DNA of 64,000 nt from Pseudomonadota bacterium (GTDB lineage: Bacteria; Pseudomonadota; Alphaproteobacteria; Rhizobiales; Aestuariivirgaceae): NCBI GenBank assembly GCA_020161855.1, contig JAIUNJ010000001.1, positions 186,001-250,000 of the forward strand, written 5' to 3'. Both the position numbers and the translations under genes were made by a program. Below, piece after piece: positions 36,254 through 53,614 of the stretch. Each line of letters opens with the position of its first letter. Positions within the stretch are counted from its first letter, which is position 1. A model generated the notes under the pieces. It had not been told where the DNA came from. It did not search any database and saw nothing but the letters and a program-made list of their open reading frames with translations.

Positions 36254-37518
36254 GCACCCTTCCCGCCAGAGAAGGTGGCGATGGATTGTGCCAATTCCTT
36301 GTGGTCCTTGGCGTAAGTCTCCAGCGGAATGCCGGCCACGGCCGCTTCCCAGGCCTGGCGCACAGCCCTCACGCCAGCGCCCGCCCCACCGGGATGCGAG
36401 ACGATGCCGCCGCCACAGAGATACATGAGGTCGAGCGTGCGGCCTGTCTTCTCATAGGTCTCGGGCGCCTGCCCGCCCCATTGGCCGGAACCCGCAACAG
36501 GCAGCGGGCAATCTTTCGCATCGAAGAGCGGGGCTGCCAGCGCCTTGAAGGAGCTGACGAAGCTCTCATCCGGCTCCCAGTATTTCACACGGATGCCGTT
36601 GATCTGGAACTGGTCGACGCCGAGAAGCCGCCAGAACTGCTGCCAGACCCTGAAATCCATGCCGAGGCCGGGGTGGCGCGTGAGGATGTCCCAGCCGTTG
36701 CGATGGGCATGCAGCACCAGCGCCGAACGGCGGCGCAGGAAAGCAAAGGCTCCGAAGCCGATCGAGTTGATGTTGATGACGGCGCAATTGCCGCCATGTT
36801 TCACCACGATATCGTGATTGCGCATCATCTCGTCCGGATCAGTGGCCGAGATGCCCCAAGCATACATGACCTTGCGACCGGTCTTCTGCTCGCGCTCAAG
36901 GATCGTCGGCATGATCGCCTTCACGCGTGCTTCCAGCGGCGAATAGACGGGCGACATGAGCTTCTCGTCGTCCTTGACGAAATCTACATCGGCCTCGATC
37001 ACGTCCTTCACGAGGGCTGCCGTCTCGGGCGGGCGCAGACCCAGCGCCGGCTTGATGATGGTGCCGATGATGGGGCGCCCGGCAACACCTGTCAGGCGGC
37101 GCGTGCCGGGAATGCCGAATTGCGGTCCGGGCCAGGCCCGGCCGAATTCCTCGGGCAGCTTCATGTCAATGATGCGGATGCCGGTGAACCCCTTGATCGA
37201 ATAGACCCCGCCGATGGCGATGGTCATCAGGGCCGCAAGATCGGTGCCGATGGCCTCGAAGGGAAAGGCGATATCGGCCTCGGCCCGGTTGAAGGGGCCC
37301 GCCTCAGCGCTGGGGAAGGAAGGAACGGCCAGCGGCGGCAGCGGCCTCAGGGCCACAACCCGCGCCGCCACGCGGTTCTTCAGTTCCTCGGTCTCCCCCG
37401 GAACGGCCACGAAGGTGCCGGTCGACTGGTCGCTGGCAATCTTGGCGGCAAGCTTTTCCGGGTGTCCCACTGTCTCGATCAGATAGGTCAGGGTGACGAA
37501 GGACTGGGCTTTTGTCAT
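36250..37518 (-). CDS. RuBisCO-like protein (form IV), 3-oxo-isoapionate-4-phosphate decarboxylase or transcarboxylase/hydrolase
   Basis: A 422-residue RuBisCO large-chain homologue. By eye alignment Lys156 (IIKPALGL) matches Lys175 of spinach RuBisCO; Lys182-Asp-Asp184-Glu185 (VDFVKDDEKL) keeps the carbamylated lysine and the magnesium ligands; His272-Arg273 (LHAHRNG) matches His294-Arg295. In loop 6, DQFQINGIRVK keeps a lysine (312) but has glutamines where RuBisCO has His325 and His327. In apiose catabolism two such proteins are known, a decarboxylase (OiaX) and a transcarboxylase/hydrolase (OiaT); I cannot tell which this is. It is divergent from the GntR gene at 37572. Confidence 0.85.
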   Translation of the reverse strand: MTKAQSFVTLTYLIETVGHPEKLAAKIASDQSTGTFVAVPGETEELKNRVAARVVALRPLPPLAVPSFPSAEAGPFNRAEADIAFPFEAIGTDLAALMTIAIGGVYSIKGFTGIRIIDMKLPEEFGRAWPGPQFGIPGTRRLTGVAGRPIIGTIIKPALGLRPPETAALVKDVIEADVDFVKDDEKLMSPVYSPLEARVKAIMPTILEREQKTGRKVMYAWGISATDPDEMMRNHDIVVKHGGNCAVININSIGFGAFAFLRRRSALVLHAHRNGWDILTRHPGLGMDFRVWQQFWRLLGVDQFQINGIRVKYWEPDESFVSSFKALAAPLFDAKDCPLPVAGSGQWGGQAPETYEKTGRTLDLMYLCGGGIVSHPGGAGAGVRAVRQAWEAAVAGIPLETYAKDHKELAQSIATFSGGKGA

Positions 37519-37571
37519 GACGCGGGGCTGCTATGATGAAGAGGTCTTTTGCCAAGGAGCGCCAGGACAGC

Positions 37572-38291
37572 ATGGACAGGTCGGAACATATTTCCAAGCG
37601 CAAGCTTTCGGATGAGGTGTTTGAACGGCTCAAGCACATGATTGTCGAGGGCGCCATGCAGCCCGGCAGCCTGATGCCATCCGAGCGGGAGCTGATGACG
37701 CGCTTCGGTGTCGGACGCCCGGCCATCCGCGAGGCCATGCAGCAGCTCTCCAGCATCGGCCTCATCGAGATCAATCACGGTGAGCGGGCCCGTGTGCTGC
37801 AGCTGACGCCACAGTCGCTGATGCGGCAGGTGGACCAGGCGGCGCAGATCATGCTGTCGCTCTCCGCCGATTCTCTCGAACACCTGAAGACGGCGCGCAT
37901 CTTTTTCGAACGCGGCATGGCGCGGGAGGCCGCCCTGAAATGCACCGGACAGGATCTTGAGCGCCTGCGCGCCACGCTGGAAGAACAGCGCAAGGCCCTG
38001 GGTGATGCCGACAGCTTCATCGCCTCCGACATGCGCTTCCACACGCAGATCGCCGCCATCTCGGGCAATCCGATCTTTTCGGCGGTGAGCGAGGCCATGC
38101 TGGGCTGGCTCAAGGCCTATCGCGGCGAGATGCTGATCTGGGCCGGCATGGAAAAATACACGCTGGCCGAACACGAGGAAATCATCTCGCATCTTGCGAC
38201 CAATGATCCCGATGCAGCCGAGGCGGCCATGGTCAGGCATCTGGAGCGCTCGCGGTCGCTTTACGTGTCAAACCGCCAGGGGCCGGGCTAG
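37572..38291 (+). CDS. GntR-family transcriptional regulator, NanR-like
   Basis: About 239 residues from ATG 37572 (MDRSEHISKRKLSDEVF). An ATG at 37533 is possible but would leave only 14 bp to the divergent RuBisCO-like start, too little for a promoter. The winged helix reads LMPSERELMTRFGVGRPAIREAMQQL; the FCD domain has DMRFHTQIAAISGNPIF and AEHEEIISHL. It sits in the middle of the apiose genes and is a good candidate for their local repressor, alongside the GntR at 24533. Its stop shares CTAG with that of the Gfo/Idh gene. Confidence 0.88.
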   Translation: MDRSEHISKRKLSDEVFERLKHMIVEGAMQPGSLMPSERELMTRFGVGRPAIREAMQQLSSIGLIEINHGERARVLQLTPQSLMRQVDQAAQIMLSLSADSLEHLKTARIFFERGMAREAALKCTGQDLERLRATLEEQRKALGDADSFIASDMRFHTQIAAISGNPIFSAVSEAMLGWLKAYRGEMLIWAGMEKYTLAEHEEIISHLATNDPDAAEAAMVRHLERSRSLYVSNRQGPG

Positions 38292-39322
38292 GCCAGCAGA
38301 CCGGCAAGCGGCACGGTGCGCCCGCTGCTCGCCGATTGATAGACAGCTTCCACCAGCGCGAAGGTCTGCAGGTAGTCGCGCCCTGATGTCTGCGGTTCCG
38401 TGCCGTTCTTCAGGCAATCGACCCAGTGCTGTTGGATGAGCGAGACGCTTTCCTGCACATTGTGCCAGGGGCGCGTGGCCCAGGGCAGGAGCGGCGGCGA
38501 AACATCAAGATTGCGGCTCTTGCCACCAGCCGTCACCGACAGTTGGTAATTTGCACCGAGGCGGAGGGCGCCCTTCGTGCCGTCGATCTCGACCAGCGTC
38601 TGCGGGAAGAGATCATCCTCAGCCGGCGAGAAGTAGGAGCAGTCGACAATCGAGGCAACACCATCGCCATGGTCAAGCAAGGCGGTGGCGACATCCTCGC
38701 CCTTGACCCTGGGGTTCACCCGCTTGATCCGTGCACTGACGTTCAAGGCATCGCCAAAGAGGAAGCGCGCCACATCGAGCACATGGACACCGAGATCCTC
38801 GACGATGAAGCGCTCACCCTCCGCCAGATAGGGCTGGCCCGCGAAGATATCATAGGCCGTGCGGAAGGAGACCCGCCCCCAGGCGGGCGTGCCGATCTCA
38901 CCGGCATCGACAATCTCCTTCACCTTCAGGATCGGCGATTGCCAGCGGAAGTTTTCATGCACCATCAGCGGCACACCGGCCTTGGCACAGGCATCGACCA
39001 TGGCCTTGGCGTCGGCAAGATTGCTGGCGAAGGGCTTCTGGCAGATCACCGCCACGCCGTGGCGCGCCGCCAGTTCCACAAGGGCACGATGGCTCGGCAC
39101 GGTGGTGGCGATGTCGACGAAATCCGGCTTTTCCTTGCGCAGCATCTCCTCGGCATCGTCATAACGCTTGGCGATGCCGAACTGGTCACCGGCAATCTTC
39201 AGGCGCTCCGGATTCTTGTCGCAGATGGCAACGATCTCCGCTCCCTTTGCATCGCGCCAGCCATGCAGGTGGTTCATCGCGAAGAAACCGCAACCGATGA
39301 GTACGCCCCGTAGTGTGGTCAT
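38288..39322 (-). CDS. apsD: Gfo/Idh/MocA oxidoreductase, probable D-apiose dehydrogenase
   Basis: A 344-residue NAD(P)-dependent sugar dehydrogenase. It has the Rossmann start RGVLIGCGFFAMNHLHGW, the family lysine in CQKPFASNLADA and a C-terminal sheet domain with FIVEDLGVHVLDVARF. In the described apiose pathway a Gfo/Idh member oxidises D-apiose to apionolactone, which the ApnL-type lactonase then opens. Position next to the ApnO-like gene and opposite the RuBisCO-like gene supports this role. Confidence 0.68.
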   Translation of the reverse strand: MTTLRGVLIGCGFFAMNHLHGWRDAKGAEIVAICDKNPERLKIAGDQFGIAKRYDDAEEMLRKEKPDFVDIATTVPSHRALVELAARHGVAVICQKPFASNLADAKAMVDACAKAGVPLMVHENFRWQSPILKVKEIVDAGEIGTPAWGRVSFRTAYDIFAGQPYLAEGERFIVEDLGVHVLDVARFLFGDALNVSARIKRVNPRVKGEDVATALLDHGDGVASIVDCSYFSPAEDDLFPQTLVEIDGTKGALRLGANYQLSVTAGGKSRNLDVSPPLLPWATRPWHNVQESVSLIQQHWVDCLKNGTEPQTSGRDYLQTFALVEAVYQSASSGRTVPLAGLLA

Positions 39323-39330
39323 GTTATGCC

Positions 39331-40158
39331 TCAGGTGATCCGCTTGATGCTGGCGGCGATTTCATCGGTCTCGAAGACCTTCTTCCAATCATCGCGCATC
39401 AGCATGGGTTTGCCGAATTGAATAGCCTTGTTGCAGGCATCGGAGAAGACGCCGGGCTGTTCCTTGAAGATCACGGCGCCAAGAATGTTCATGTGGCCGA
39501 GCAGAAAATCGCGGGCCGCCTCGAGCGGCACGCCGCGCGCCACCACTTCGTCCATGGCTTCGCGCATGACATCGAGCAGCGAGGCGACAACGGTTTCGGC
39601 GAGGCCGGGTTCGAGAAGTGCGATCTGGTCGACGGTCAGGCGATGCGAGCGCATGACGGGCGCCCAGATGGTCTTTGCCACGGCCTCGCCGCGGGCATAG
39701 TCCGATTCCGGTCCCTGCATCAGGGCGCAGACGATGGCCTGCTTGGCGGCAACACCGCCGAAGCGGTCGAGCTTCGCTGCCATCTCGGTCTCGTCGTTGA
39801 AGATCGGCGGATGGCAGGGATGGGTGATGAAATAGGTAATGTCCTTGCGCTCCGGCAGGTGCCCGGCATAGGGCGCCGCGGCATCGAGGATCACCACCAT
39901 GGCGCCTGGCTTGAGCTTGCTGACAATGCCGTGGGCAACCTTGCCGATCACCGTATCGGGAACGGCGAGGACAACGATGTCGGCACCCTGGATGGCGGTA
40001 TCGCCGTCGACGGCGGTCCAGCCAAGCTCATCCTTCACGCGCTGGGCACCGGCCGGGCTCAGTTCCACGGCGGCCACGTCATAGGTGGAGGCCTTGAGGT
40101 TGCGGCCAAGCCGCATGCCCATCTTGCCACCAGCGCCAAACAAAGCGAGTTTCGTCAT
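39331..40158 (-). CDS. apnO: D-apionate oxidoisomerase-like NAD-binding protein
   Basis: A 275-residue protein starting at MTKLALFGAGGKMGMRLGRN (ATG 40158 with GGGAGGG upstream; a longer frame lacks such a site). The N-terminal NAD domain (GAGGKMG, VVLAVPDTVIGKVA) is followed by a 6-phosphogluconate-dehydrogenase-like helical C-terminus (LLGHMNILGAVIFKEQPGVFSDA). ApnO in the apiose pathway oxidises and isomerises apionate to 3-oxo-isoapionate. It precedes the dehydrogenase gene by 8 bp, so the two share a transcript driven from the region at 40159-40300. Confidence 0.68.
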   Translation of the reverse strand: MTKLALFGAGGKMGMRLGRNLKASTYDVAAVELSPAGAQRVKDELGWTAVDGDTAIQGADIVVLAVPDTVIGKVAHGIVSKLKPGAMVVILDAAAPYAGHLPERKDITYFITHPCHPPIFNDETEMAAKLDRFGGVAAKQAIVCALMQGPESDYARGEAVAKTIWAPVMRSHRLTVDQIALLEPGLAETVVASLLDVMREAMDEVVARGVPLEAARDFLLGHMNILGAVIFKEQPGVFSDACNKAIQFGKPMLMRDDWKKVFETDEIAASIKRIT

Positions 40159-40197
40159 GAACCCTCCCGACGTTGCTTTCGCCCTCTGTCTCATAAC

Positions 40198-40454: not shown

Positions 40455-41147
40455 TTAGTAGGTGGCGCGACCACCGGAGATGTCGAACACGGCGCCTGTC
40501 GAGAAGGAGCATTCCTCGCTCGCCAGCCAGCAGATGAGGCTGGCATTCTCATCGACCGTGCCGAAGCGGCCCTTGGGGATCTTCGACAGCATGAAGTCGA
40601 TGTGGCTCTGCGGCATCTGGTCGAAGATCGGGGTGCGCACCGCGGCGGGCGTCACCGCATTGACCGTGATGTTGGTCTTGGCCAGTTCCTTGGCCAGCGA
40701 CTTGGTGAAGCCGATGACGGCGGCCTTGGAAGCCGAATAGGCCGAAGCATTGGGGTTGCCTTCCTTGCCGGCGATCGAGGCGATGTTGACGATGCGGCCG
40801 TAGTTCTGCGCGATCATGTGCGGGATGACCGAGCGGTTGGTGAAGAATGTGCCGTTGAGATTGACGGCGATGGTCTGCATCCAGCCATCGATAGGAAAGC
40901 CATCGACCGGCACGGTGGGGCCGGTGACGCCGGCACTGTTCACCAGGATGTCGATGCCGCCGATCTGGCGGATGGTTTCGGCCACGGCATTTTCAACCGA
41001 GGCCAGATTCGAGATGTCGGTCTTGATGCCGCCATTGGTATCCCACACGGCAACCTTGCCACCCTCCGCGGTGATCCGCTTGGCCACGGCCTCGCCAATG
41101 CCGGAAAGGCCTCCCGTGACAACAGCACGGCGTCCCTGAAATCTCAT
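40455..41147 (-). CDS. Short-chain dehydrogenase/reductase (SDR)
   Basis: A 230-residue classical SDR. The cofactor loop is TGGLSGIGEAVAKR, NSAG follows, and the active site shows Ser in NIASIAG and Tyr-Lys in YSASKAA. It is the last gene of the two-ATPase importer operon, 10 bp after the PfkB kinase gene. It likely oxidises a polyol or sugar to a ketose or lactone before or after phosphorylation; the substrate is not readable. Confidence 0.9.
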   Translation of the reverse strand: MRFQGRRAVVTGGLSGIGEAVAKRITAEGGKVAVWDTNGGIKTDISNLASVENAVAETIRQIGGIDILVNSAGVTGPTVPVDGFPIDGWMQTIAVNLNGTFFTNRSVIPHMIAQNYGRIVNIASIAGKEGNPNASAYSASKAAVIGFTKSLAKELAKTNITVNAVTPAAVRTPIFDQMPQSHIDFMLSKIPKGRFGTVDENASLICWLASEECSFSTGAVFDISGGRATY

Positions 41148-41157
41148 GATCGCACCT

Positions 41158-42099
41158 TCATTTCATCTTCCATGTCTTCATGGCAGCGAGCGTCTTCTCA
41201 AACGACTCGATGCCTGCATCCGATCCAAGCCCGGTGGCGACAAGGCCCGCCGCAGCCTGGGCGAAGCGCAGCGCCGTCTCCACATCCATCTTGTGATGCA
41301 GGGCCGCAATCATGCCGGCATCAAAGGCATCGCCGCAGCCCGTCGTATCCACCACCTTGATGTCATAGGCCAGCGCAGTGATGCGCGTGCCATCCCTGTG
41401 GGCATAATAGGCGCCATCGCCACCTAGCGTGAACACACAGCAGGCCGCGCCCTTGTCGAGATAGAAGCGGGCGCAATCTTCCGGCGTCGCCTGCCCCGAC
41501 ATGTCCTTTGCCTCTTCGATCGAAGGCATGAAGTAGTCGATACAGGGCAGGAGCGGCATGACGATCTTCGCCGTTTCGGCATTGGCGGCGATCAGGTCAA
41601 AGGTGACGGTGCGCCCGCGCTTCTTCGCTTCCTTCAGAAGGGTTAGGCTTGCCGGGCCATCGAGCTTGCGCAGCAGGCCCGTGCCGCCGAGGTGAATGAT
41701 CGGCGCATCGAAGACCTTGTCATAGAGTTCCGGTGGGACATCGAAGTGATCCGAGGCGCCACGCACATGCAGCGCCGGACGCTCGCCATTGGGCCTGACA
41801 TTGAGGATCGTCGCCGAGGTGGGGACGCCCTTGAGCCGCTGCATCGCCGACACATCGATGCCGTGCTTCTGCATGGTGAATAGAACCCAGTCGGCCTTCT
41901 CGTCATCGCCCACGGCACCGACAGCAAGGCTCTTCAGGCCGAGCTTCGCCGTGTCTACAACGGTGCCACCGGCCGTGCCGGCCACCGTGAGGCGGATCTC
42001 CTCGATGAAATCAACACCGCCCCGCTCGGGAATGCGCGTGACCGGACGGCCCAGCACATCGAGAATGTAGAGGCCGATGACGGAGACGTCGTGCCCCAT
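41158..42099 (-). CDS. PfkB-family carbohydrate kinase
   Basis: A 313-residue ribokinase-like enzyme. The N-terminal substrate region has TVAGTAGGTVVDTAKLG and the ATP/anion-hole motif is DTTGCGDAFDAG near the C-terminus, with the catalytic aspartate. It lies 5 bp after the small membrane protein gene in the importer operon, so it phosphorylates the imported sugar, its oxidised product or a nucleoside. The pair with an SDR fits a polyol-to-ketose-to-ketose-phosphate sequence. Confidence 0.9.
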   Translation of the reverse strand: MGHDVSVIGLYILDVLGRPVTRIPERGGVDFIEEIRLTVAGTAGGTVVDTAKLGLKSLAVGAVGDDEKADWVLFTMQKHGIDVSAMQRLKGVPTSATILNVRPNGERPALHVRGASDHFDVPPELYDKVFDAPIIHLGGTGLLRKLDGPASLTLLKEAKKRGRTVTFDLIAANAETAKIVMPLLPCIDYFMPSIEEAKDMSGQATPEDCARFYLDKGAACCVFTLGGDGAYYAHRDGTRITALAYDIKVVDTTGCGDAFDAGMIAALHHKMDVETALRFAQAAAGLVATGLGSDAGIESFEKTLAAMKTWKMK

Positions 42100-42104
42100 G
42101 GGCC

Positions 42105-42557
42105 TCAGGCCTTGTTGCGCGACCGCAGCGTGATGAGGCCGGCGAGAACGGCTGTGATGACGGCAATGGTCCAGGTGAAGGAGTGCAGATACCAGGGCGT
42201 TGCCGCCAGCTGGATCTTGCCGGCCGTGGTGTTCGGATCAGGCGGCTTGAGGAAGAAAATACCGTAGAGCGACGCGGCAAACATGGCGATCAGCAGCGTG
42301 ATGCCGAAGATCATGGCAACGACCATGGCGACAGTGATGATGCTGCGCGTCTGAACGCCGGGCTGCGCCATGGGCAGGAGGTTGTTCACCAGCCCCGCAA
42401 TGACGACCAGGATCGAGCCGATGGTGAAGAGCGCCAGGCTGAACGGCTGGAAGATCATGATCAGGGCGAGGATGCCAAGCCCGATGATCGAATATTCGAG
42501 GCGGAGTGCGCCCTGCTGGGTGATGCCGCCCTTGCCGGAGTCGAGATTGCTGCTCAT
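42105..42557 (-). CDS. Small four-helix integral membrane protein of unknown function
   Basis: A 150-residue protein with about four membrane segments (IIGLGILALIMIF, FTIGSILVVIAGLV, IITVAMVVAMIFGITLLIAMF and FTWTIAVITAVLAGLITL) and short soluble loops. I do not recognise a named family. Its ATG overlaps the ATPase stop by 4 bp, so it is made with the importer. Rhizobial glycerol importers (GlpSTPQV), which also have two ATPases, carry a small DUF2160 membrane protein in the operon; this may be an analogous subunit, but I cannot show homology. Confidence 0.75.
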   Translation of the reverse strand: MSSNLDSGKGGITQQGALRLEYSIIGLGILALIMIFQPFSLALFTIGSILVVIAGLVNNLLPMAQPGVQTRSIITVAMVVAMIFGITLLIAMFAASLYGIFFLKPPDPNTTAGKIQLAATPWYLHSFTWTIAVITAVLAGLITLRSRNKA

Positions 42558-43642
42558 GCCCGCACCGCCTTTCCGTCTTCGCCGAAGATGTGGGTCTGTG
42601 CCGGATCGGGCACGAGGTGAAGGGTCTCGCCGATCTTCACGCGCTTGTCGCGCGGCACCACCACGCGGATGTCATTGCCCGTCTTGGTGCGGGCGTGAAT
42701 GAGGGTTTCAGCGCCCATCGGCTCGATCAGCTCCGAAACCGCCTCGATCGTATCCTTGGTGTCCTTGCCGACGACCGAGAAGGCACGCGGGCGGATGCCG
42801 ACGGTGATCTGGCCGGGCTTGAGCTTGGCCACCGCATGGTTGACGCCGATGTCGACGTCCTGCTTGTCGAAGGTGACCTTGGCCTTGCCGTTGTTGTAGC
42901 TCTTGAAGTTGGCGCTGATGAGATTCATCTGCGGCGTGCCGATGAAGCTGCCGACGAAGAGATTGGCGGGCTTGGCAAAGACGTCATGCGGGCTGCCCAC
43001 CTGCTCGATGAGGCCATCACGCATGATGGCGATGCGGTCGGCCATGGTCAGCGCTTCAAGCTGGTCATGGGTCACGATCACTGTTGCCTTCGAGAGGTTC
43101 GAAAGCACGCCCTTGATCTGGCCGCGCATGGAATGGCGCAGTTCGACATCGAGGCGCGAGAGCGGTTCGTCGAAGAGGAAGCAGTTGGGATCGCGCACGA
43201 TGGCGCGGGCCACGGCCACGCGCTGCTTTTCACCTTCCGAGATGCGGCCCGGCAGGCGGTCCAGCACATCGCCGAGATGCAGGATGTCGGCGACCTTCTT
43301 GACGCGCGCCTGCTGTTCGGCAGCAGAGAGGCCCTCATAGTGCAGCGGCATGGCGATGTTCTCGCCGACCGTCAGCGCCGGATAGAGCGCATAGAACTGG
43401 AAGACCATGGCGATGTCGCGCTTGTCGGGGGCAAGCTCGTTCATGCGCTGGCCGGCAATGATGACATCGCCGGAAGTGGCACGCTCGAGGCCCGCGATCA
43501 TGCGCAGCGTCGTGGTCTTGCCGCAGCCCGAAGGACCGAGGAGACAGACCACTTCGCCAGCCTCCACCTTGAGGTCGGCATCGCGCACGGCGACGAACTC
43601 GCCGAACTTCTTGGTGATTTTTCTGATTTCGATCGTGGACAT
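42554..43642 (-). CDS. Sugar ABC transporter ATPase 1, altered signature motif
   Basis: A 362-residue MalK-like ATPase. Walker A is consensus (GPSGCGKT, residues 36-43), Walker B is intact (CFLFDEP, Glu159), and the H-loop is intact (IVTHDQLEA, His192). The signature, normally LSGGQ, reads ISEGEKQ (134-140), confirmed codon by codon. A C-terminal regulatory domain follows. A second, different ATPase gene lies at 47225 in the same operon. Its motifs complement this one, so the two probably form a heterodimer with one consensus and one degenerate ATP site. Confidence 0.9.
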   Translation of the reverse strand: MSTIEIRKITKKFGEFVAVRDADLKVEAGEVVCLLGPSGCGKTTTLRMIAGLERATSGDVIIAGQRMNELAPDKRDIAMVFQFYALYPALTVGENIAMPLHYEGLSAAEQQARVKKVADILHLGDVLDRLPGRISEGEKQRVAVARAIVRDPNCFLFDEPLSRLDVELRHSMRGQIKGVLSNLSKATVIVTHDQLEALTMADRIAIMRDGLIEQVGSPHDVFAKPANLFVGSFIGTPQMNLISANFKSYNNGKAKVTFDKQDVDIGVNHAVAKLKPGQITVGIRPRAFSVVGKDTKDTIEAVSELIEPMGAETLIHARTKTGNDIRVVVPRDKRVKIGETLHLVPDPAQTHIFGEDGKAVRA

Positions 43643-43645
43643 GGA

Positions 43646-44590
43646 TTAGCGCTTCACTGTGCCGAAGGTCACACCCCGCAGCAGGTGGTCCTGCAGGAAG
43701 AAGGTGACGAGGAAGACAGGGATGAGGAAGAGCGTCTCGATGGAGGCCAGCAGCGTCCAGTCGGTGCCGCGGCCGCCGGAAGAGACGGCCTGGTTCATGG
43801 CGACCGGCACGGTGCGCGTGTCCGGCCCCGTGAGCAGCAGGGCGAAGAGGAACTCGTTCCAGGTGAGGATGAGGCCGAAGACGAAAGTGGCGGCCAGACC
43901 GGCGATCACCTGCGGCAGGCAGATCTTCAGGAAGACCTTGGTTTCGGATGAGCCGTCGATGCGTGCGGCATCCTCCACGTCGGTTGAAAGCTCGTCGAAG
44001 AAGCTTTTCATCATCCAGATGGTGAAGGCCAGGTTGAAAGCCGTGTAGAGCAGGATGATGCCGATATAGGAGCCGGAGAGGCCGACCACGCGGAACATCA
44101 GGATGACCGGGATGATGACCACGATCGCCGGCAGCATGCGCGTCGTCAGGATGATGAAGAGATAGGTGTCGTTGCCCTTCAGCGGATAACGCGAGAAGCC
44201 ATAGGCCGCCAGTGTGCCAATGATCAGCGCCAGGAACACCGAGGTGGAGGCGATGACGATCGAGTTGAAGAAGTAGCGGTCGAAGCCCGTGGGCTCAGGC
44301 GCACCGCCCGAGGTCATCGAGCGCGAGAACACCGAGGAGAAATTCTCCAGCGTCGGCGTGAAGACATAGTGATCGGGGATCAGCCCGAAAAGCGACGTCG
44401 GCGACAAGGTCGGAGGAACCGACAGCGCCATGTCCTGCGGCTTCAGCGAGGTGAAGATGATGAAGAGCACGGGCAGGAAGTAGAAGAGGCTGATGAGCCC
44501 GACGCCGAGCGTGCGGCCCCAGCCGGATTCACCGACATTGCCCGACTTGAAGAAGCCGATACGCTCCAGGAAGGATGAAGATTGGGACAT
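43646..44590 (-). CDS. Sugar ABC transporter permease (MalG-like)
   Basis: A 314-residue CUT1 permease with six predicted helices. The EAA loop is EDAARIDGSSETKVFLKICLPQVI, where the ATPase docks. Residues 60-90 between the first two helices form a longer periplasmic loop than usual. It lies 3 bp from each neighbour (ATPase 1 and the other permease). Confidence 0.92.
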   Translation of the reverse strand: MSQSSSFLERIGFFKSGNVGESGWGRTLGVGLISLFYFLPVLFIIFTSLKPQDMALSVPPTLSPTSLFGLIPDHYVFTPTLENFSSVFSRSMTSGGAPEPTGFDRYFFNSIVIASTSVFLALIIGTLAAYGFSRYPLKGNDTYLFIILTTRMLPAIVVIIPVILMFRVVGLSGSYIGIILLYTAFNLAFTIWMMKSFFDELSTDVEDAARIDGSSETKVFLKICLPQVIAGLAATFVFGLILTWNEFLFALLLTGPDTRTVPVAMNQAVSSGGRGTDWTLLASIETLFLIPVFLVTFFLQDHLLRGVTFGTVKR

Positions 44591-44593
44591 CGC

Positions 44594-45655
44594 TCAGGCT
44601 CCCTGGCTGCGGCGGTTGGCGATATAGAGGTAGAGATTGGTCAGAACGATCACCATGAAGAGCATGAGATAGGAAATCGCCGCGCCTTCGCTCGTCTTGT
44701 TCTGCTCGTTGGCGATGCGGATCAGATGGTACGAAATGGTCAGCGTGTCGTTGCCGCCCTTGGTGAGCAGGATGACGAGATCGGCGAGCTTGAAGGCCTC
44801 GATGGTGCGGAAGAGAAGCGCCAGCATGAGCAGGCCGCGGATATAGGGGAAGGTGATGTTCCAGAACTGCCGCCAGCCCGAGACACGGTCGATGGCGGCT
44901 GCCTCGTAGAGATACTTGGGCACCGAAACGAGACCGGCCAGAACCAGCAGCATCACGAAGGGCGACCACATCCAGGCATCGGCGAAGACGATGCCGGCCA
45001 CGGCACCGACCTTGTTGTCCATGAGGATGAACTGCTCGTTGCTGAACTGGTTCATCACGTAAGAGAGAATGCCGAAGGTCGGGTCATAGTAGTAGGTGAA
45101 GAACACGCCCGAGGCCACGACCGAGAGCATCATCGGCGTGAGCACGAGGATGAGCAGGTATTTGCGCAGCGGAAACTGCTTGGAGAAGAGCAGCGCGAGC
45201 AGGAAGCCGACGATCATCTGGGCCGCCACCGTGAAGACCACGAACATGGCGGTGTTGATCAACGCATGCCAGTTGGCCGGTGCGGCCAGATCATTGGTGA
45301 GGGCCTTCACATAATTGGCGAGGCCGACGAAGCGGATCGACTGCTGGTTCGACTGATAGGCGAAGAAGGAAAGCCCGAGCGACCAGAGCAGCGGGAAAAT
45401 GTTCATCACGAAGAGAACGGCAATGGCGGGAGCCACGAGCAGCCCGCCGTAATAGCCACGGCGATAAGCATTGACGACGAAGGCCGCCGCGACGAGTGCC
45501 GCCATGGCACCCACGATCCAGAAGGACACCGAGGCCGGCAGGGCCAGGGCAGCCAGAATGGAGACCACGAGGCCTGCCAGAATGGCCAGTTTCCAGTTGT
45601 CGGGGGCCACCTCAAAAAGCTGGGGGGCCGGCCGGTCGATCACTACAGCGGACAT
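44594..45655 (-). CDS. Sugar ABC transporter permease (MalF-like)
   Basis: A 353-residue permease with extra N-terminal helices (LAILAGLVVSILAALALPASV and FWIVGAMAALVAAAFVV) before the conserved core, so about eight segments. The EAA loop reads YEAAAIDRVSGWRQFWNITFPYI. A hairpin separates it from the binding-protein gene upstream. It pairs with the permease at 43646. Confidence 0.9.
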   Translation of the reverse strand: MSAVVIDRPAPQLFEVAPDNWKLAILAGLVVSILAALALPASVSFWIVGAMAALVAAAFVVNAYRRGYYGGLLVAPAIAVLFVMNIFPLLWSLGLSFFAYQSNQQSIRFVGLANYVKALTNDLAAPANWHALINTAMFVVFTVAAQMIVGFLLALLFSKQFPLRKYLLILVLTPMMLSVVASGVFFTYYYDPTFGILSYVMNQFSNEQFILMDNKVGAVAGIVFADAWMWSPFVMLLVLAGLVSVPKYLYEAAAIDRVSGWRQFWNITFPYIRGLLMLALLFRTIEAFKLADLVILLTKGGNDTLTISYHLIRIANEQNKTSEGAAISYLMLFMVIVLTNLYLYIANRRSQGA

Positions 45656-45688
45656 TGGTTTATCGCGTCGCCTTGGAATTGACAGAAA

Positions 45689-45718
45689 GCCGCGCGGGAA
45701 GGTTCCCTCCCGCGCGGC
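45689..45718 (-). terminator. Intercistronic 11-bp hairpin after the binding-protein gene
   Basis: GCCGCGCGGGA (45689-45699) and TCCCGCGCGGC (45708-45718) form a perfect 11-bp stem with an 8-base loop. Read on the minus strand it follows the binding-protein stop by 13 bp and leads to TTTCTGTC. It probably causes partial termination or shields the upstream mRNA. Confidence 0.7.
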
Positions 45719-45731
45719 GACTAGGTTCGTT

Positions 45732-47165
45732 TTACTGGATCAGACCAGCTTCCGTGAGCAGGTTCTGCTGGAACTTGGCAATGTTGTCCAAGGTCGTCTT
45801 CGCATCCTGCTTGCCAGTGATGGCCAGGTCGAACTGGTCCTGCTGCTGGGTCAGAAGCTCGAAGAACTGCGGAACGTGCCAGACGTCCTTCTGCCAGTCG
45901 AGTTGCGGAGCCCAAGCGCGGTTCCACGGACGATAGGTCACGTACTTCGGATCTTCGTAGACCGACTTGATGGCCGACTGGCCGCCACCGGCTGCGAACT
46001 GGTGCTGAATGTCAGGAGACAGCCACCACTTCACGAACTCGACAGCTTCCTTGATCTGCGAGTCGGTCGTCCAGGTCGTCAGCACGAAGGGCTGGCCACC
46101 GATGTTGGACCAACGGATCATCTTGCCATCCGGACCCAGAGTGCCCGGCATCTGGCCGAAGACCAGCTTGTCGGAGACCTTGGAGGTCTTCGGATCGAGC
46201 GAAGCTTCGCCCAAGCCGATCCAGTCGACGTTCATAGCCACCTTGCCTTCGCGGAACAGTTCGTCCGACTTGAAGATGTCCATGGTGCCCGTCCGGGCGA
46301 CCGGCGGCATGTACTCGATCAGGCTGAGGTACTTCTCGAGCGCCTTGACGGCTTCCGGAGAGTTCACAACGCCTTCGGCCTGGCCGTTCGGAACCTTGGT
46401 TTCATCCCAGGTGTCGCCGCCCATCTGCCAGATGAAGCCGTTGATCTGCATGGACGAGAAGTCGTAGCCCTTGCCGGCCTGGAAGGCGATTCCGTAGAAA
46501 TCGTCATCGGCAGGCTTGCCAGCGAGCATTTCGCCCTTCTTGCGGCGGAAGAATTCGCCGACGTTCTTGAAGTCATCCCAGGTCATCGCATCGAGCTCTT
46601 CGCCCGTGCAAGGCAGCTTCTTGCTGTACTTGGCCTGGAAGTTCTTCTGCTCTTCCTCGTTGCAGAGAACGTCAGCACGGCCGTAGTTCACCAGAACGTC
46701 CGGGAACTGCGGGAAGCCGTAATAGTTCTCCGACTTGTGGGGATAGGTCGAGTAGGCGTTCAGCGGATTCGGATGGATCGACTTGAAGGTCGCCATGAAG
46801 GCCGGATCGGCGTCCAGAAGATCGTTGATCTTGCGGAAGTAGCCGCCTTCCACGAAGGCACCGAGCCACTGCGAGTCAGACACAATGAAGTTGTACTTCT
46901 GCTCGCCCGAGGTGAGCGAAGCGTTGACGCGCGTGTAGAAGTCCGGCCACGGAATGAAGTCCACGTCCAGCTTCACGGTATTGCCCGAAGCAGGCTTGTA
47001 CTGTTCGTCGAAGAACTTCTTCATGATGCGCGTCGGCGGCCAATCAGGCACCGCCATGGTCAGTGTCACATCTTCAGCAGATGCAACCTTGGCACCGCCA
47101 ACCATCAGCGCGGCGGCAAAGCCGGCTGCTGTCGCCAGTGTCTTCACTTTCATCATCACGGTCAT
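45732..47165 (-). CDS. Sugar/polyol ABC transporter substrate-binding protein
   Basis: A 477-residue secreted protein. A Sec signal peptide (VKTLATAAGFAAALMVGGAKVASAED) precedes a CUT1-type binding protein (PASGNTVKLDVDFIPWPDFYTRVNASL). GGGAGGAAA precedes the ATG. It is the receptor of the two-ATPase importer. Polyols or monosaccharides are expected ligands given the SDR and PfkB kinase; I cannot name one. Confidence 0.9.
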   Translation of the reverse strand: MTVMMKVKTLATAAGFAAALMVGGAKVASAEDVTLTMAVPDWPPTRIMKKFFDEQYKPASGNTVKLDVDFIPWPDFYTRVNASLTSGEQKYNFIVSDSQWLGAFVEGGYFRKINDLLDADPAFMATFKSIHPNPLNAYSTYPHKSENYYGFPQFPDVLVNYGRADVLCNEEEQKNFQAKYSKKLPCTGEELDAMTWDDFKNVGEFFRRKKGEMLAGKPADDDFYGIAFQAGKGYDFSSMQINGFIWQMGGDTWDETKVPNGQAEGVVNSPEAVKALEKYLSLIEYMPPVARTGTMDIFKSDELFREGKVAMNVDWIGLGEASLDPKTSKVSDKLVFGQMPGTLGPDGKMIRWSNIGGQPFVLTTWTTDSQIKEAVEFVKWWLSPDIQHQFAAGGGQSAIKSVYEDPKYVTYRPWNRAWAPQLDWQKDVWHVPQFFELLTQQQDQFDLAITGKQDAKTTLDNIAKFQQNLLTEAGLIQ

Positions 47166-47224
47166 TTAGGTTTCCTCCCTTGGTTAACCGCATTCGCTTC
47201 AGTCGGCAGATTGCAAGGCGCGCC

Positions 47225-48316
47225 TCACGACAGCGCCTCACCTCCTGCCGCACGGAAGAAGTGGAACTTTTCCGGATCAAGATAGATCGATGCCGCCTGG
47301 CCAGGCTCGAGCCCCGAGGCCACCTGCTCCGGCAACACCAGGCGGAGCGTCTCCTCACCGGCGGCAACGGAAACAACCGTCACGTCGCCGAGCGGCTCCA
47401 GCATCCTGATCTGTGTCTTCACCGCATCCTCGCCCTTCTTGGCGATACGGATGTCATTCGGCCTGATGCCCACGATCGCGGCCTCGCCCGCCTGGGCGCC
47501 GGCAAGCTTCTTCGGGCTCACCAGCTTGCCCAGGGCTGTTTCAAAAGTCGACTTGTCCTTGCCGGTCTTGGCCTGCAACAGGTTCATGTGCGGCGAGCCG
47601 ATCTTGCCGGCCACGTAGAGATCCTTCGGGCTCTCGTAGAGCTCGTCGGGCGTGCCGCGCTGCACGACAGCACCCTCGCGCATGACGGCGATTTCCTCGC
47701 CCATCGACAGGGCCTCAAGCTCATCCGGCGTCGCATAGACAATGGTCATGCCGAACTGGCGGTGCAGGCGCTTCAGCTCGGCACGCATGTCGTGACGGAG
47801 CTTGGCGTCCAGGTTGGTCAGCGGCTCGTCGAGCAGGAGAATCTTGGGACGGCGGATCAGCGAACGGCCAAGCGCCACACGCTGCTGTTCGCCGCCTGAC
47901 AGCGTGTTGGGCTTGCGGTCAATCTTCTTGTCGAGCTTGAGCATCGCCGCGGTTTCCTTCACGCGGCGATCGATCTCTTCCTTGCCGACCTTCTCCTCGA
48001 CCAGCGGATAGGCAAAATTCTCGTAGACCGTGAGGTGCGGATAGAGCGCGAAGGACTGGAACACCATCGATACGCCGCGGCCCTTGATCTCCGCTGCGGT
48101 CATGTCCTTGCCGAAAATCTCGAGCGAGCCGGCATCGGGGCGGACAAGTCCAGCGATGGTGCGAAGCGTTGTTGTCTTACCGACAGAGCTGGGTCCGAAC
48201 AGGACGAAAAACCTGCCCTCTGCAACCTCAAAGGAAAGGTTCTCGACGGCGCGGACGCGGCCGTAATGTTTGGTGACGCCTTTCAGAGACAGTGCGGTAT
48301 TCGCGCTCGCTGACAT
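47225..48316 (-). CDS. Sugar ABC transporter ATPase 2, H-loop histidine replaced by proline
   Basis: A 363-residue MalK-like ATPase from ATG 48316 (GGGAG 5 bases upstream; an ATG at 48328 would add four residues). Walker A is GPSSVGKT (41-48), the signature is consensus (LSGGEQQR, 139-146), Walker B is intact (ILLLDEP, Glu164). The H-loop, normally THD, reads ATPDELEA with Pro197; the codon is CCG on the minus strand. It heads the operon that ends with the SDR at 40455. It is probably the partner of ATPase 1 at 42554. Confidence 0.9.
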   Translation of the reverse strand: MSASANTALSLKGVTKHYGRVRAVENLSFEVAEGRFFVLFGPSSVGKTTTLRTIAGLVRPDAGSLEIFGKDMTAAEIKGRGVSMVFQSFALYPHLTVYENFAYPLVEEKVGKEEIDRRVKETAAMLKLDKKIDRKPNTLSGGEQQRVALGRSLIRRPKILLLDEPLTNLDAKLRHDMRAELKRLHRQFGMTIVYATPDELEALSMGEEIAVMREGAVVQRGTPDELYESPKDLYVAGKIGSPHMNLLQAKTGKDKSTFETALGKLVSPKKLAGAQAGEAAIVGIRPNDIRIAKKGEDAVKTQIRMLEPLGDVTVVSVAAGEETLRLVLPEQVASGLEPGQAASIYLDPEKFHFFRAAGGEALS

Positions 48317-48402
48317 CCGTGCTCCCATTCCCGATATTTTATCTCAATTGCGATCAGACTATCGCGTCCCCCGACAAGCGCAAGGGTCGCGCGTGGTTTT
48401 GG

Positions 48403-49545
48403 TTATCCCCGGGCGCTTTCCCAGCGGCCCGTTGCCGAAGATTTAAGCACCGCATCGGTGACCAGATCGGTCGCCATGGCCTCGCGGAAATCCGGTGCCG
48501 CTGACTTACCAGTCCCGACGCCCTCAAGGAAGTCGGCAACCTGGTGGATGAAGGAATGTTCATATCCGATCTGGAGACCCGGCACCCACCACTTGCCCAT
48601 GTAGGGATGGTCGCCATCGGTAATGTGAATCGAACGCCAGCCGCGGGTGCGGCCTTCGTCGCGGTGATCGAAATACTGCAGGCGATGGAGATCATGCAGA
48701 TCCCAGAAGATCGAGGCTTTTTCGCCATTGATCTCGAGCGTGTAGAGGGCCTTGTGGCCACGCGCATAACGTGTCGCCTCGAAGTTGGCGAGCGAGCCGT
48801 TGTCAAACCGCGCGAGGAAGAGGCTGGCATCATCGATGCCGACCTTCTCGGCCTTGCCGGTGAGCGCGTGGTGGCGCTCCTTGATGAAAGTCTCGGTGAC
48901 GGCGGTCACCTTGTCGATGCCGCCATTGAGCCACATAGCCGTGTCGATGCAATGGGCCAGAAGATCGCCGGTGACACCGGAGCCCGCCACGGACGCATCA
49001 AGGCGCCAGAGACCTTGGCCGCCCTGCGGCAGATCGGCAGAAATCGTCCAGTCCTGCAGGAACTTGGCGCGGTAATGGAAAATCTTGCCGAGACGGCCCT
49101 CGTCGATGAGCTGCTTGGCCATGGTGACGGCGGGGATGCGGCGATAATTGTACCACACCATGTTCGGCACCTTGGCCTTCTCGACCGCCTCGACCATCTT
49201 CGCTGATTCAGCAGCGTTGCGGCCCAGCGGCTTCTCGCACATCACCATCTTGCCGGCAGCAGCCGCGGCCAGCGCGATCTCCAGATGCATGTCATTGGGC
49301 GCTGCGATGTCGATGAGGTCGATATCCTTGCGCTCAACGAGCTTGCGCCAATCGGTCTCGGTCGACTCATAGCCCCACTGGTCGGCAAAGGCCTTGAGCT
49401 TCTCGCCGTTGCGGGCCGCCGCGGCCTTGAGCACCGGCTGATAGGGCAAGTCAAAGAAATGGCCAGCCTGGGCGAAGGCATTGGAATGGGCCCGGCCCAT
49501 GAAGCCGTAACCCACCATGCCGACATTGAGCTTCTTCTTGGCCAT
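48403..49545 (-). CDS. Gfo/Idh/MocA-family oxidoreductase
   Basis: About 380 residues from ATG 49545, whose A is shared with the TAA of the preceding gene; an ATG at 49557 is an alternative. It has the Rossmann start [17 protein letters not shown], the family EKP motif ([15 protein letters not shown]) and a C-terminal sheet domain ([16 protein letters not shown]). It oxidises a sugar or cyclitol carbon with NAD(P). With the TIM-barrel isomerase before it and the importer after it, it forms part of a sugar oxidation route whose substrate I cannot assign. Confidence 0.9.
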
Positions 49546-50591
49546 TATGCCGTCCATCCGTGCTTGTCGCGCACCTTGATCATGGTGGCGAGAATATCGT
49601 TCCAGGTCTGCTGCTTGAGCATCACGTCATTGGGGAACATGCAGCCATCCCAGCAGATGTGACGGAAGGCCTTGGTGAGGCCGCCATCCTTGCCGCGCAG
49701 CCAGAGCCCGGCATGCTTGACGATGTCGAGCTTGCCGTTCTTGTCGGTCACCATGCAGTGGCGGCCGGTCTTGTCGTGATAGCCGAGGCCCTTCACCGTG
49801 CCGTCGTTCTGCGCGACATGGAAATCGATGGTCCAGGGGCGCAGCGCATCGGTCATCTTGACCAGCGCCTCATCAAGCAGCTTCTTGTTCTTCCAGTCAT
49901 ACTTGGCCGGCAGCAGGCGGCTCTTCGGGGCGTTGTAGCCCATGGTGTAGAGCAGCGTGTGGGCCATATCGGCCTGGAAGCCGATGGTGTGGGGACGATC
50001 AACCTCCTCAAGGGTGTTGATCATGTCTCGCCAGGAATGCATGCCGCCCCAGCAGATCTCGCCTTCGGCAGCGAGGCGCTCGCCATAGTCGGCAGCCACA
50101 GAGCAGGCTTCGCGGAACGTCTGGGCGATCTTCTTGGTGCTACCCACCGGATCCTTGGCCCACTCGGCCGGGCTTGAGGCACTGTCGATGCGGATGACGC
50201 CATAGTGACGCACACCCAGATCGCGGAGCTTGGCGCCGAGCTTGCAGGACTTCTCGACATTGGCGACAAACTTCTTGCGGTCGGACGGCGAACCCATGGC
50301 TGAGCCACCACCAACCGGCGGCCAGACAGGCGCCACGATGGAACCGATGGCGAGATTATGCTTGCGGACCTTGTCGGCCAGCTTCTTCACTTCGTCGCCG
50401 CTGAAGTCGATATTGGTGTGCGGCGCAGCATGGAAAATGTCGATGCCGTCAAACTTGACGCCGTTCACCTGCGCCTTGGCCGTGAGTGCGATCATCGTAT
50501 CGAGATCGATGGGCGGCTCGGAATCCGAACCCTTGCCCACAAGTGCCGGCCACATGGCATTATGCAGCTTGGGAAAGTTGTTCTTGCCCAT
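49545..50591 (-). CDS. Xylose-isomerase-like TIM-barrel protein (sugar phosphate isomerase/epimerase family)
   Basis: A 348-residue protein starting at [15 protein letters not shown] (ATG 50591 with GGGAGGA upstream). It shows [12 protein letters not shown], a glutamate-rich mid barrel ([11 protein letters not shown]), [11 protein letters not shown] and [10 protein letters not shown], consistent with the metal-binding residues of the AP_endonuc_2/xylose isomerase-like barrel. Members isomerise, epimerise or decarboxylate sugar acids; one apiose-pathway decarboxylase (OiaC) belongs to this broad fold as I recall. It is divergent from the GntR gene at 50677. Confidence 0.85.
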
Positions 50592-50676
50592 CGCCGATCC
50601 TCCCAATTCTGTTCTTGGGCGAACGTTTTGCAGGTTTTCCCGTTGATGTCCAGAACTGATATATTAGTATGACAGC
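50592..50676. promoter_or_regulatory. Divergent promoter region with AT-rich near-palindrome
   Basis: The 85 bp between the isomerase gene and the GntR gene must contain both promoters. ATATTAGTAT, roughly 50660-50670, is a near-perfect dyad in an AT-rich spot just before the GntR start, a plausible repressor site. Evidence is limited to position and symmetry. Confidence 0.4.
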
Positions 50677-51898: not shown

Positions 51899-53533
51899 CT
51901 ATCGCCGCGCAAGGCCTTCAAGGAGTGTCGCCACCGCCTCGGCACCCGGATCAGTGATGCCTTGCAGCTTGACTGACGAGACATAGCTGGAGCGGCCGGC
52001 GCGGGCCCGCGTCATGTGGGCTGTCGCGTCGGCCCCGGCACGGGCCGCCTGTGCGGCCGATTGCACACTTTCGCCTTTGACAAGGGCTGCCAGGGCCGGC
52101 ACCAGAGCATCGACCATGGTCCGGTCGCCGGGCAAGGCGCCGCCATAAGCCATCATCTTGTCGAGACCTGCCTGCAGGGACTTGGGCCAGGACGCGCCCG
52201 AGGCCGCTGCATGACCCGCAGCAGCGAAGAGAATGGCCATCAACACACCGCTTGAGCCGCCCATGGAACGGGTGAAGGACCCGCTCGCGGCGGCAAAGAA
52301 CTGATCAAGCCTGGCCAGCGGCATGGTGTTGAGGTGATCGCGCAGGAAGCGCGCCGCCGTGGCAATGGTGGAACCTGTATCGCCATCGCCGACCTTGGCA
52401 TCGAGCGCGTTGAGCTTGCCTTCAGCATCGATCAGGATTTCACAGGCCTTGTCCACCAGCTTTGCCAGCTCCGGGTTCTTGCTGGCCTTGGCAGGCCTCG
52501 CCTTCATGGCCGCGGGCAATTTCACGAGCTTCGGCTTTGCGTGGAGCTTGACGCCGGGCCAGACCAGCGGCGCCGCCGGTGACTTCAGCGCAACCTCAAA
52601 CTCCGGCGTAAGTGGCAGGAGGCTGAGCGAGAAGCCATGCATATCGAGTGAAGTGACGAGATTGGCCGGACCGCAGACGAGCTTGATCTTCTTGCCATGG
52701 GGGCCCTTCAGCACTTCATTGGTGAGCAGGCTCATTTCCAGCGGCGTTGTCGAACCCAGATTGTTGACGAGCAGCGCATAGGAGCGCGCCGGACGGGCCG
52801 CCGCAAAGAGCTTGTCGGCAATGAGGTTCGCGGCGTGCTTGCCACCTTCAAAACCGATGAGATCGACACCCGGTTCACCGTGGATGCCGAGGCCCAGTTC
52901 GGCCTGGCCTTCCGGAACACGGTCTTCGCGGCCGATGCCGGGCAATGTGCAGGAGGTCAGGGCAATGCCGAGCGAGACAAGACCATCAGCCGCCTTCTGC
53001 GCCACCTTCGCCACCTTCTCGAGGCTCCAGCCCTTGGCCGCATAGTGGCCCGCGATCTTCTCGACAAACATGACGCCGGCAATGCCGCGCGGCTGGGCGA
53101 TATCAGGCAGGGCAATGTCGTCGCGGACGATGACGATGGCCACCTTCTTGCCGAGGGCGCGGGCACGCTCTGCCGCAAGGCCGAAGTTGAGCCTGTCGCC
53201 GGTGTAGTTCTTGAAGATCAGGAGGCAGCCGGCCTTGCCGGTCACGGCCATGATGGCGGCGAAGACCGCATCGACGCTGGGCGAGGCAAAGACCTCGCCG
53301 CAGACCGCAGCCGTGAGCAGGCCGGGGCCGACAAAACCGGCGTGGGCCGGCTCATGGCCTGAACCACCACCAGCCACCAGCGCCACCTGGCTGGGCTTGT
53401 GATCGGTGCGCAGGATCACCTTGATGCCCGGATAGCCGTCGAGGCGGGCCAGATTGCTGCCGCCGCTGGCACGCAGAAGGCCATCAAGTGCGTCGACAAC
53501 AAGGCTTTCCTTGGCATTGATGAATTGCGGCAT
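51899..53533 (-). CDS. Dihydroxyacetone kinase-type fused DhaK-DhaL kinase
   Basis: A 544-residue single-chain kinase. Start ATG 53533 has GGGGAGG upstream. The DhaK part (GGGSGHEPAHAGFVG, hemiaminal-forming histidine in GLGIHGEPG) is fused to a DhaL part (AKVGDGDTGSTI, which binds Mg-ATP through aspartates). Being ATP-dependent, it needs no PTS partner. Relatives phosphorylate dihydroxyacetone, glyceraldehyde or L-erythrulose (LerK in tetrose routes). It lies 81 bp after the glycerate kinase gene and probably ends that operon. Confidence 0.9.
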   Translation of the reverse strand: MPQFINAKESLVVDALDGLLRASGGSNLARLDGYPGIKVILRTDHKPSQVALVAGGGSGHEPAHAGFVGPGLLTAAVCGEVFASPSVDAVFAAIMAVTGKAGCLLIFKNYTGDRLNFGLAAERARALGKKVAIVIVRDDIALPDIAQPRGIAGVMFVEKIAGHYAAKGWSLEKVAKVAQKAADGLVSLGIALTSCTLPGIGREDRVPEGQAELGLGIHGEPGVDLIGFEGGKHAANLIADKLFAAARPARSYALLVNNLGSTTPLEMSLLTNEVLKGPHGKKIKLVCGPANLVTSLDMHGFSLSLLPLTPEFEVALKSPAAPLVWPGVKLHAKPKLVKLPAAMKARPAKASKNPELAKLVDKACEILIDAEGKLNALDAKVGDGDTGSTIATAARFLRDHLNTMPLARLDQFFAAASGSFTRSMGGSSGVLMAILFAAAGHAAASGASWPKSLQAGLDKMMAYGGALPGDRTMVDALVPALAALVKGESVQSAAQAARAGADATAHMTRARAGRSSYVSSVKLQGITDPGAEAVATLLEGLARR

Positions 53534-53614
53534 GGGTTCCTCCCCGTGATGATCTTTGTCGTTGTTGGCGCGCAACTATGCTGAGGACGCGCCAAAAAGC
53601 AATCGCGCGCGGGG

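Follow-up and report, generated by a model that had tools for sequence, protein, structure and literature searches.

The importers MalFGK2, UgpABCE and AlgQ1M1M2SS each have one kind of ATPase and two consensus ATP sites, and for the glycerol importer GlpST, which has two ATPases, mutants and growth assays already exist. Here we describe an ATP-binding cassette (ABC) importer encoded in a 64,000-nucleotide stretch of an alphaproteobacterial genome (assembly GCA_020161855.1, contig JAIUNJ010000001.1, positions 186,001 to 250,000; hereafter the window), which equals MalFGK2, UgpABCE and AlgQ1M1M2SS in domain make-up but, unlike them, has two different ATPases. ATPase 1 (A1) carries a degenerate signature and ATPase 2 (A2) has proline in place of the H-loop histidine, and in every distinct orthologous pair that could be read the two alterations fall on one and the same composite ATP site. 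This pattern makes it likely, though short of firm, that a CUT1/type I importer operates with an obligate ATPase heterodimer in which one site would hydrolyse ATP and the other would hold it.

One ATP site consists of the Walker A and B motifs and the A-, Q- and H-loops of one domain together with the signature of the other, as set out in a section of PMC7756269, and the composite sites assumed in a first-pass annotation of the window agree with this make-up. Degenerate sites are established in ABC exporters (sections of PMC7756269 and PMC7756565), where the signature is changed in one domain and Walker B, often with the H-loop, in the other (section of PMC7756269). The exporters TAP, TM287/288, BmrCD and MRP1 resemble the window system in pairing one consensus with one degenerate composite site, whereas they move substrates outward and their degenerate site often lacks the catalytic glutamate, which the window pair keeps. 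RbsA and NupO are sugar or nucleoside importer ATPases for which one degenerate site is reported, but they are fused single-chain CUT2 proteins among the type II importers, and it is the second Walker A lysine that is lost (excerpt of PMC11466899). DppD/DppF is treated in a legend of PMC12136057, and the glpSTPQUV operon is mentioned in a passage of PMC7912956 and its genes are listed in a passage of PMC11223650. By titles and the starts of abstracts, no report of a degenerate ATP site in a CUT1 importer was found in the open-access literature, accounts elsewhere being possible. What is described here would be an exporter-type asymmetric pair of ATP sites in a binding-protein-dependent type I importer, conserved and probably convergent. 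Whether such an importer needs one or two ATP hydrolyses per cycle has been hard to test, as the model importers have identical ATPases; in systems of the window type the two sites have already been differentiated by evolution and can be addressed singly by genetics, which offers a natural test of one versus two sites and carries the degenerate-site question of TAP, CFTR and MRP1 over to binding-protein-dependent importers, GlpST included.

Motifs of the two ATPases

The importer is encoded by the following genes:

47225..48328, minus strand: ATPase 2 (A2), by Pfam and profile alignment; start at 48316 or 48328
45732..47165, minus strand: solute-binding protein, SBP_bac_8 / SBP_bac_1 by Pfam
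44594..45655, minus strand: permease 1 (PermF), UgpA/MalF-like by domain and family matches
43646..44590, minus strand: permease 2 (PermG), UgpE/MalG-like by domain and family matches
42554..43642, minus strand: ATPase 1 (A1), by Pfam and profile alignment
42105..42557, minus strand: small helical membrane protein (U150), overlapping the end of A1

Both ATPase genes are open frames on the minus strand at the positions given by the first-pass annotation, and the A2 start it chose, 48316, is plausible, with GGGAG preceding that ATG and an alternative in-frame ATG at 48328. Each ATPase has the Pfam domains ABC_tran, OB_MalK and TOBE_2 and belongs to the MalK/UgpC type; with this OB/TOBE C-terminus, two binding-protein-dependent permeases and a solute-binding protein in the same operon, the system has the make-up of a CUT1/type I importer. 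The motifs were read from an alignment of both proteins to one common profile. A1 has Walker A GPSGCGKTT, Q-loop MVFQFY, signature ISEGEKQ, Walker B CFLFDEP, D-loop SRLD and H-loop VTHDQ, and A2 has Walker A GPSSVGKTT, Q-loop MVFQSF, signature LSGGEQQ, Walker B ILLLDEP, D-loop TNLD and H-loop ATPDE. The profile alignment thereby bears out what had been proposed from the letters alone, namely a degenerate signature in A1 beside intact Walker motifs and H-loop histidine, and in A2 an intact signature with proline at the histidine position (ATPDELEA). Walker A and the catalytic glutamate are intact in both. We take the altered signature positions of A1 and of GlpT to correspond to CFTR Gly550 and Gly551.

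Within the same genome these departures are rare. Among 27 MalK-type ATPases that were read (score >200, from 33 rows, with frame length the main criterion of choice among 108 ABC domain matches), the H-loop histidine is absent in two, A2 and one protein at locus L190, and S-G-G is absent from the signature in two, A1 and the same L190 protein that lacks the histidine. The odd motifs therefore belong to three proteins from two operons that both encode two ATPases, and because the departures are rare and all fall in two-ATPase operons, they are not due to chance. The L190 operon also corrects the earlier inference, drawn from two other ATPases in the window, that asymmetry is no general feature of the strain, as it encodes a second and different asymmetric pair.

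Conservation in orthologous loci

Loci of the window family were fetched with permease or solute-binding protein queries, blind to ATPase motifs. The PermF search covered 289 genomes of the class; 53 had matches at E 1e-30, and among these the genome of the window itself and four more (58-60% identity) hold members of the same family. The solute-binding protein search covered 61 relatives and gave matches in 37 at E 1e-30, of which 25 (the own genome and 24 of the 36 others of the genus) had at least 74% identity and the other 12 about 29-32%. A search of genome contigs with PermG returned 283 relatives, and the best 80 of these (the PermG loci) come from Reyranella, Dongia, Inquilinus, Bradyrhizobium, Mesorhizobium, Tistlia, Geminicoccus, Pelagibius and many alphaproteobacterial metagenome-assembled genomes, with a few in records labelled Gammaproteobacteria, Mycobacterium, Blastopirellula or Actinobacteria (labels as recorded). 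A plasmid search with A2 at E 1e-90 gave no match.

The resulting 105 loci do not equal 105 genomes, some genomes having been entered twice under different names. Both ATPases are present in 91 of them; the other 14 carry one ATPase, in every case with the contig end on the side where the second gene would lie, and were excluded from the pair count. With identical sequences collapsed, ATPases that have gaps at signature or H-loop positions dropped, and classes assigned by BLAST with the motif columns masked against reference rows chosen partly by motif, the complementary pattern (A1 without consensus signature and with histidine, A2 with consensus signature and without histidine) was found in all 76 distinct pairs. 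The check proposed in the first-pass annotation is thus positive, degenerate signature and loss of the histidine occurring together in the same genomes, and no orthologous pair with consensus motifs in both ATPases turned up among the fetched loci. In all 76 pairs the defects lie on one composite site, the signature in one domain and the H-loop in its partner, as is characteristic of a degenerate site. Taken singly, the A1 orthologues keep the H-loop histidine (87/87) and are always acidic at the third signature position (87/87; Glu in 86, Asp in 1), and the A2 orthologues have proline for histidine and keep S-G-G (78/78 for each). As these residues are near-invariant over 87 A1 and 78 A2 sequences whose identity to the window proteins falls to 52% and 46%, respectively, they look constrained rather than drifting. 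The neighbours of the Q-loop glutamine also differ consistently between the subunits (FQFY in A1, FQ[ST]F in A2).

Near the orthologous operon in two Mesorhizobium loci (L222 and L225) there is a further MalK-type frame that reads FRAAEMQ where LSGGEMQ would be expected and lacks Walker A in the same frame; it may be a partial gene, a frameshift or a pseudogene.

Other importers with two ATPases

The nearest two-ATPase relatives by permease, at about 40% identity, form a sister family, often adjoining a dihydroxyacetone kinase gene. It shares with the window family the closest permeases, two different ATPases per operon and a small membrane protein that is a relative of U150. It differs in that both members of all 23 distinct ATPase pairs keep the H-loop histidine, and in having the small protein between permease and first ATPase. 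Both signatures are near consensus in 19 of the 23 pairs, S-G-G or A-G-G being counted as consensus, and in the remaining four a signature glycine of the first ATPase has become serine. Since the sister pairs keep both histidines, the presence of two different ATPases in an operon is not in itself enough to bring about degeneracy. The sister loci L075, L079, L087 and L103 combine histidine in both ATPases with a drifting first signature (LSSGD, LTSGD), possibly an early stage of site asymmetry.

GlpST-type pairs were located through the DUF2160 family, which was found in 55 of 299 genomes of the phylum, and the loci of 40 of these 55 were fetched; the names GlpS and GlpT were assigned by operon make-up, as these genomes carry no annotation. 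The Glp system had been cited in the first-pass annotation as a two-ATPase importer, with no such asymmetry in view; it is no symmetric counterpart, as the same complementary pattern is present in 40 of 40 distinct pairs. GlpT has the signature L[TSAG][AP]D and keeps the H-loop histidine, while GlpS has the signature LSGGQ with histidine replaced by threonine (38) or serine (2). GlpSTPQUV of the Rhizobium leguminosarum type thus resembles the window system in having two complementary MalK-type ATPases, two permeases, a solute-binding protein and a small helical membrane protein. It differs in that its ATPase genes are adjacent to each other before the permeases, its proteins have only about 21-38% identity to those of the window, and the replacements are Thr/Ser for histidine with L[TSAG][AP]D, in contrast to proline with an acidic position 3. 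Its small protein, DUF2160, has no detectable relation to U150, and DUF2160 had no match in the window genome.

A third asymmetric family is represented in the window genome by the CUT1-like operon at L190 (7621-9838; G000:C18:408620-410837). Its nucleotide-binding domain 1 (NBD1) has LSNGQ, Walker B DDP (Glu to Asp) and glutamine for the H-loop histidine, and NBD2 has VSGGQ, DEP, the histidine and a Q-loop in which glutamine is changed to glutamate (MAFEAY). The Glu-to-Asp and His-to-Gln changes are presumably of the TAP1 kind. The same pattern of signature, Walker B and H-loop recurs in 21 NBD1 and 19 readable NBD2 entries, counts in which L190 and L279 are one and the same locus; one NBD2 has ISGGQ. 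Glu-to-Asp changes, often with H-loop changes, are a frequent pattern at degenerate sites (section of PMC7756269).

A proposed heterodimer with one hydrolysing site

From the motifs, their strictly complementary conservation and the location of both genes in one operon with a single permease pair, we infer a heterodimer and the occupancy and kinetics of its sites. Site I, formed by the Walker motifs and histidine of A1 with the signature of A2, would be fully consensus and hydrolyse ATP, while site II, formed by the Walker motifs of A2 with proline for histidine and the ISEGEKQ of A1, would bind ATP and hydrolyse it slowly or not at all. Site II may act as a clamp or hinge, with one ATP per cycle spent at site I. 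A homodimer of A1 or of A2 would carry a defect in both sites, and only the heterodimer, which is predicted to be obligate, yields one consensus site. Both defects in one subunit would likewise damage both sites, and two families, probably independent, split them between subunits.

Several points weigh against this model, which is built from sequence. AlgS, sugar-transport ATPases, SugC and MalK are the chains of solved structure that come closest in sequence, and AlgS, MalK and SugC function as homodimers whose two sites are both consensus. Maltose uptake by E. coli suffers severely when one MalK subunit is mutant, and function with a single site is therefore no given. A2 also retains its catalytic glutamate and Walker A, so that site II may still turn over ATP slowly.

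The same retained residues, present in A1 and A2 alike, are what a heterodimer hydrolysing at both sites would have, with proline and EGEKQ tolerated and the subunits differing for docking to two permeases; the differing Q-loop neighbours are as separate docking predicts, and glutamine or asparagine at the catalytic-site H-loop of ABCC1 can sustain transport (section of PMC7756269). That tolerance, however, says nothing for proline or threonine, the sister pairs also differ in Q-loop neighbours yet keep both histidines in all 23 cases, and the alterations meet on the same composite site in all 76 window-type and all 40 GlpST-type pairs, so that we regard this alternative as unlikely, while giving it more weight than the two alternatives named next. 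It is very improbable that A1 and A2 each homodimerise and serve different permease sets: importers with one ATPase gene do exist in the window genome (e.g., L198, with two permeases, a solute-binding protein and one ATPase), but each window-type operon has one permease pair with both ATPases around it, the 14 single-ATPase loci among the 105 all end at a contig edge on the missing-gene side, and either homodimer would be damaged twice. Relaxed decay of a duplicated pair with no functional meaning is hardly credible, for although the signature changes without histidine loss in the sister family (LSSGD, LTSGD; 4 of 23 pairs) resemble drift, the altered residues of A1 and A2 are near-invariant.

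Beyond the window family, ATPase heterodimers with a single hydrolysing engine may have evolved repeatedly in type I importers (the window family, GlpST and the L190 family), through different residue changes and with one site at or near consensus each time, and one hydrolysis per cycle would then be enough, as in exporters of the TAP kind; we hold this wider reading tentatively, leaning slightly against it.

The small membrane protein U150

A homologue of U150 stands beside the end of A1 in all 80 PermG loci (the best 80 of 283), 74 of them at E 1e-10. Neither Pfam nor NCBIfam gave a match for U150 at E 0.001. It is predicted to be helical (AlphaFold2, predicted local distance difference test score 87), and comparison of the model with PDB folds gave no match at E <=0.001, the best having E 1.2. 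A kinship with DUF2160 was considered and rejected, with an hhalign probability of 0.7% and nothing matched by the U150 profile among the 40 Glp loci. All 23 sister loci encode a related and shorter membrane protein, mostly of about 60-75 residues, between the genes for permease and first ATPase; it was recognised by pattern in 21, by direct view in L079 and by the U150 profile in L083. The U150 profile matches 20 of the 23 sister loci at E <=1 (best E 2e-5) and none of the Glp or L190 loci. The idea that the small protein marks asymmetric families only was dropped, as all 23 sister loci with the related protein keep both histidines; judged by its relatives, it is a mark of the group formed by the window and sister families and not of ATP-site asymmetry. 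U150 may serve these importers as an accessory subunit.

Number of origins

The asymmetry of the window family and that of GlpST probably arose twice, a reading favoured because of the permease trees, the small protein common to the window and sister families and the different replacement residues. In the joined permease tree the window family stands next to the sister family (support 100/99), and the window permeases do not cluster with GlpP/GlpQ, a clade of window and Glp permeases being rejected by the approximately unbiased (AU) test (p-AU 0.0057); this tree used 35 of 48 rows, with 4 long and 9 other rows excluded, and the program warned of long branches meeting. A quick permease tree with all 48 rows likewise groups the window and sister families.

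The ATPases speak less clearly. In trees built without the motif columns, the careful analysis, with 59 of 100 rows, left the backbone unresolved; a clade of A1 and GlpT was not rejected (p-AU 0.74), the tree constrained to it scoring 9.3 log units higher, and an ATPase-only phylogeny was discarded as arbiter on these grounds. The case for two origins therefore rests on the permeases and operon make-up.

A single origin before GlpST and the window family split, with the sister family later regaining consensus motifs, would fit the unrejected A1 and GlpT clade and the quick ATPase trees, in which A2 and GlpS stand together (support 85 and 93). The careful tree, though, leaves both groupings unresolved, the permeases join the window family to relatives with both histidines and reject its union with Glp, the small protein has relatives in the sister family with none found in Glp loci, and the replacements differ (Pro vs Thr/Ser; E at position 3 vs D at position 4), which makes a single origin rather unlikely.

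Operon layout and neighbouring genes

The importer operon is part of a longer run of minus-strand genes in which the two ATPase genes flank a block of solute-binding protein, permease and permease. The gene order is TIM barrel protein, GFO/IDH/MocA oxidoreductase, A2, solute-binding protein, PermF, PermG, A1, U150, PfkB kinase, short-chain dehydrogenase and further sugar-acid genes. The immediate neighbours, with their recurrence at at least 45% identity near the 80 PermG loci, are:

49545..50606, minus strand: xylose-isomerase-like TIM barrel protein, upstream (23/80)
48403..49557, minus strand: GFO/IDH/MocA oxidoreductase, upstream (27/80)
41158..42099, minus strand: PfkB-type sugar kinase, directly downstream of U150 (31/80)
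40455..41147, minus strand: short-chain dehydrogenase, downstream (24/80)

The oxidoreductase at 48403..49557 shows likeness to levoglucosan dehydrogenase, with a score under the cut-off of that family. The importer substrate would be a sugar, a polyol or a sugar acid.

Downstream of the importer, 33711-40194 forms a sugar-acid catabolic island that contains a RuBisCO-like protein (36250-37518), two SBD_N/NBD_C acid-sugar kinases, a PGDH_C-type dehydrogenase and a second GFO/IDH/MocA protein. Upstream of the operon, at 51899-54874, a dihydroxyacetone kinase gene (Dak1+Dak2) adjoins a MOFRL/DUF4147 gene, which we take to be glycerate kinase-like, and dihydroxyacetone kinase genes also adjoin many of the sister-family importers.

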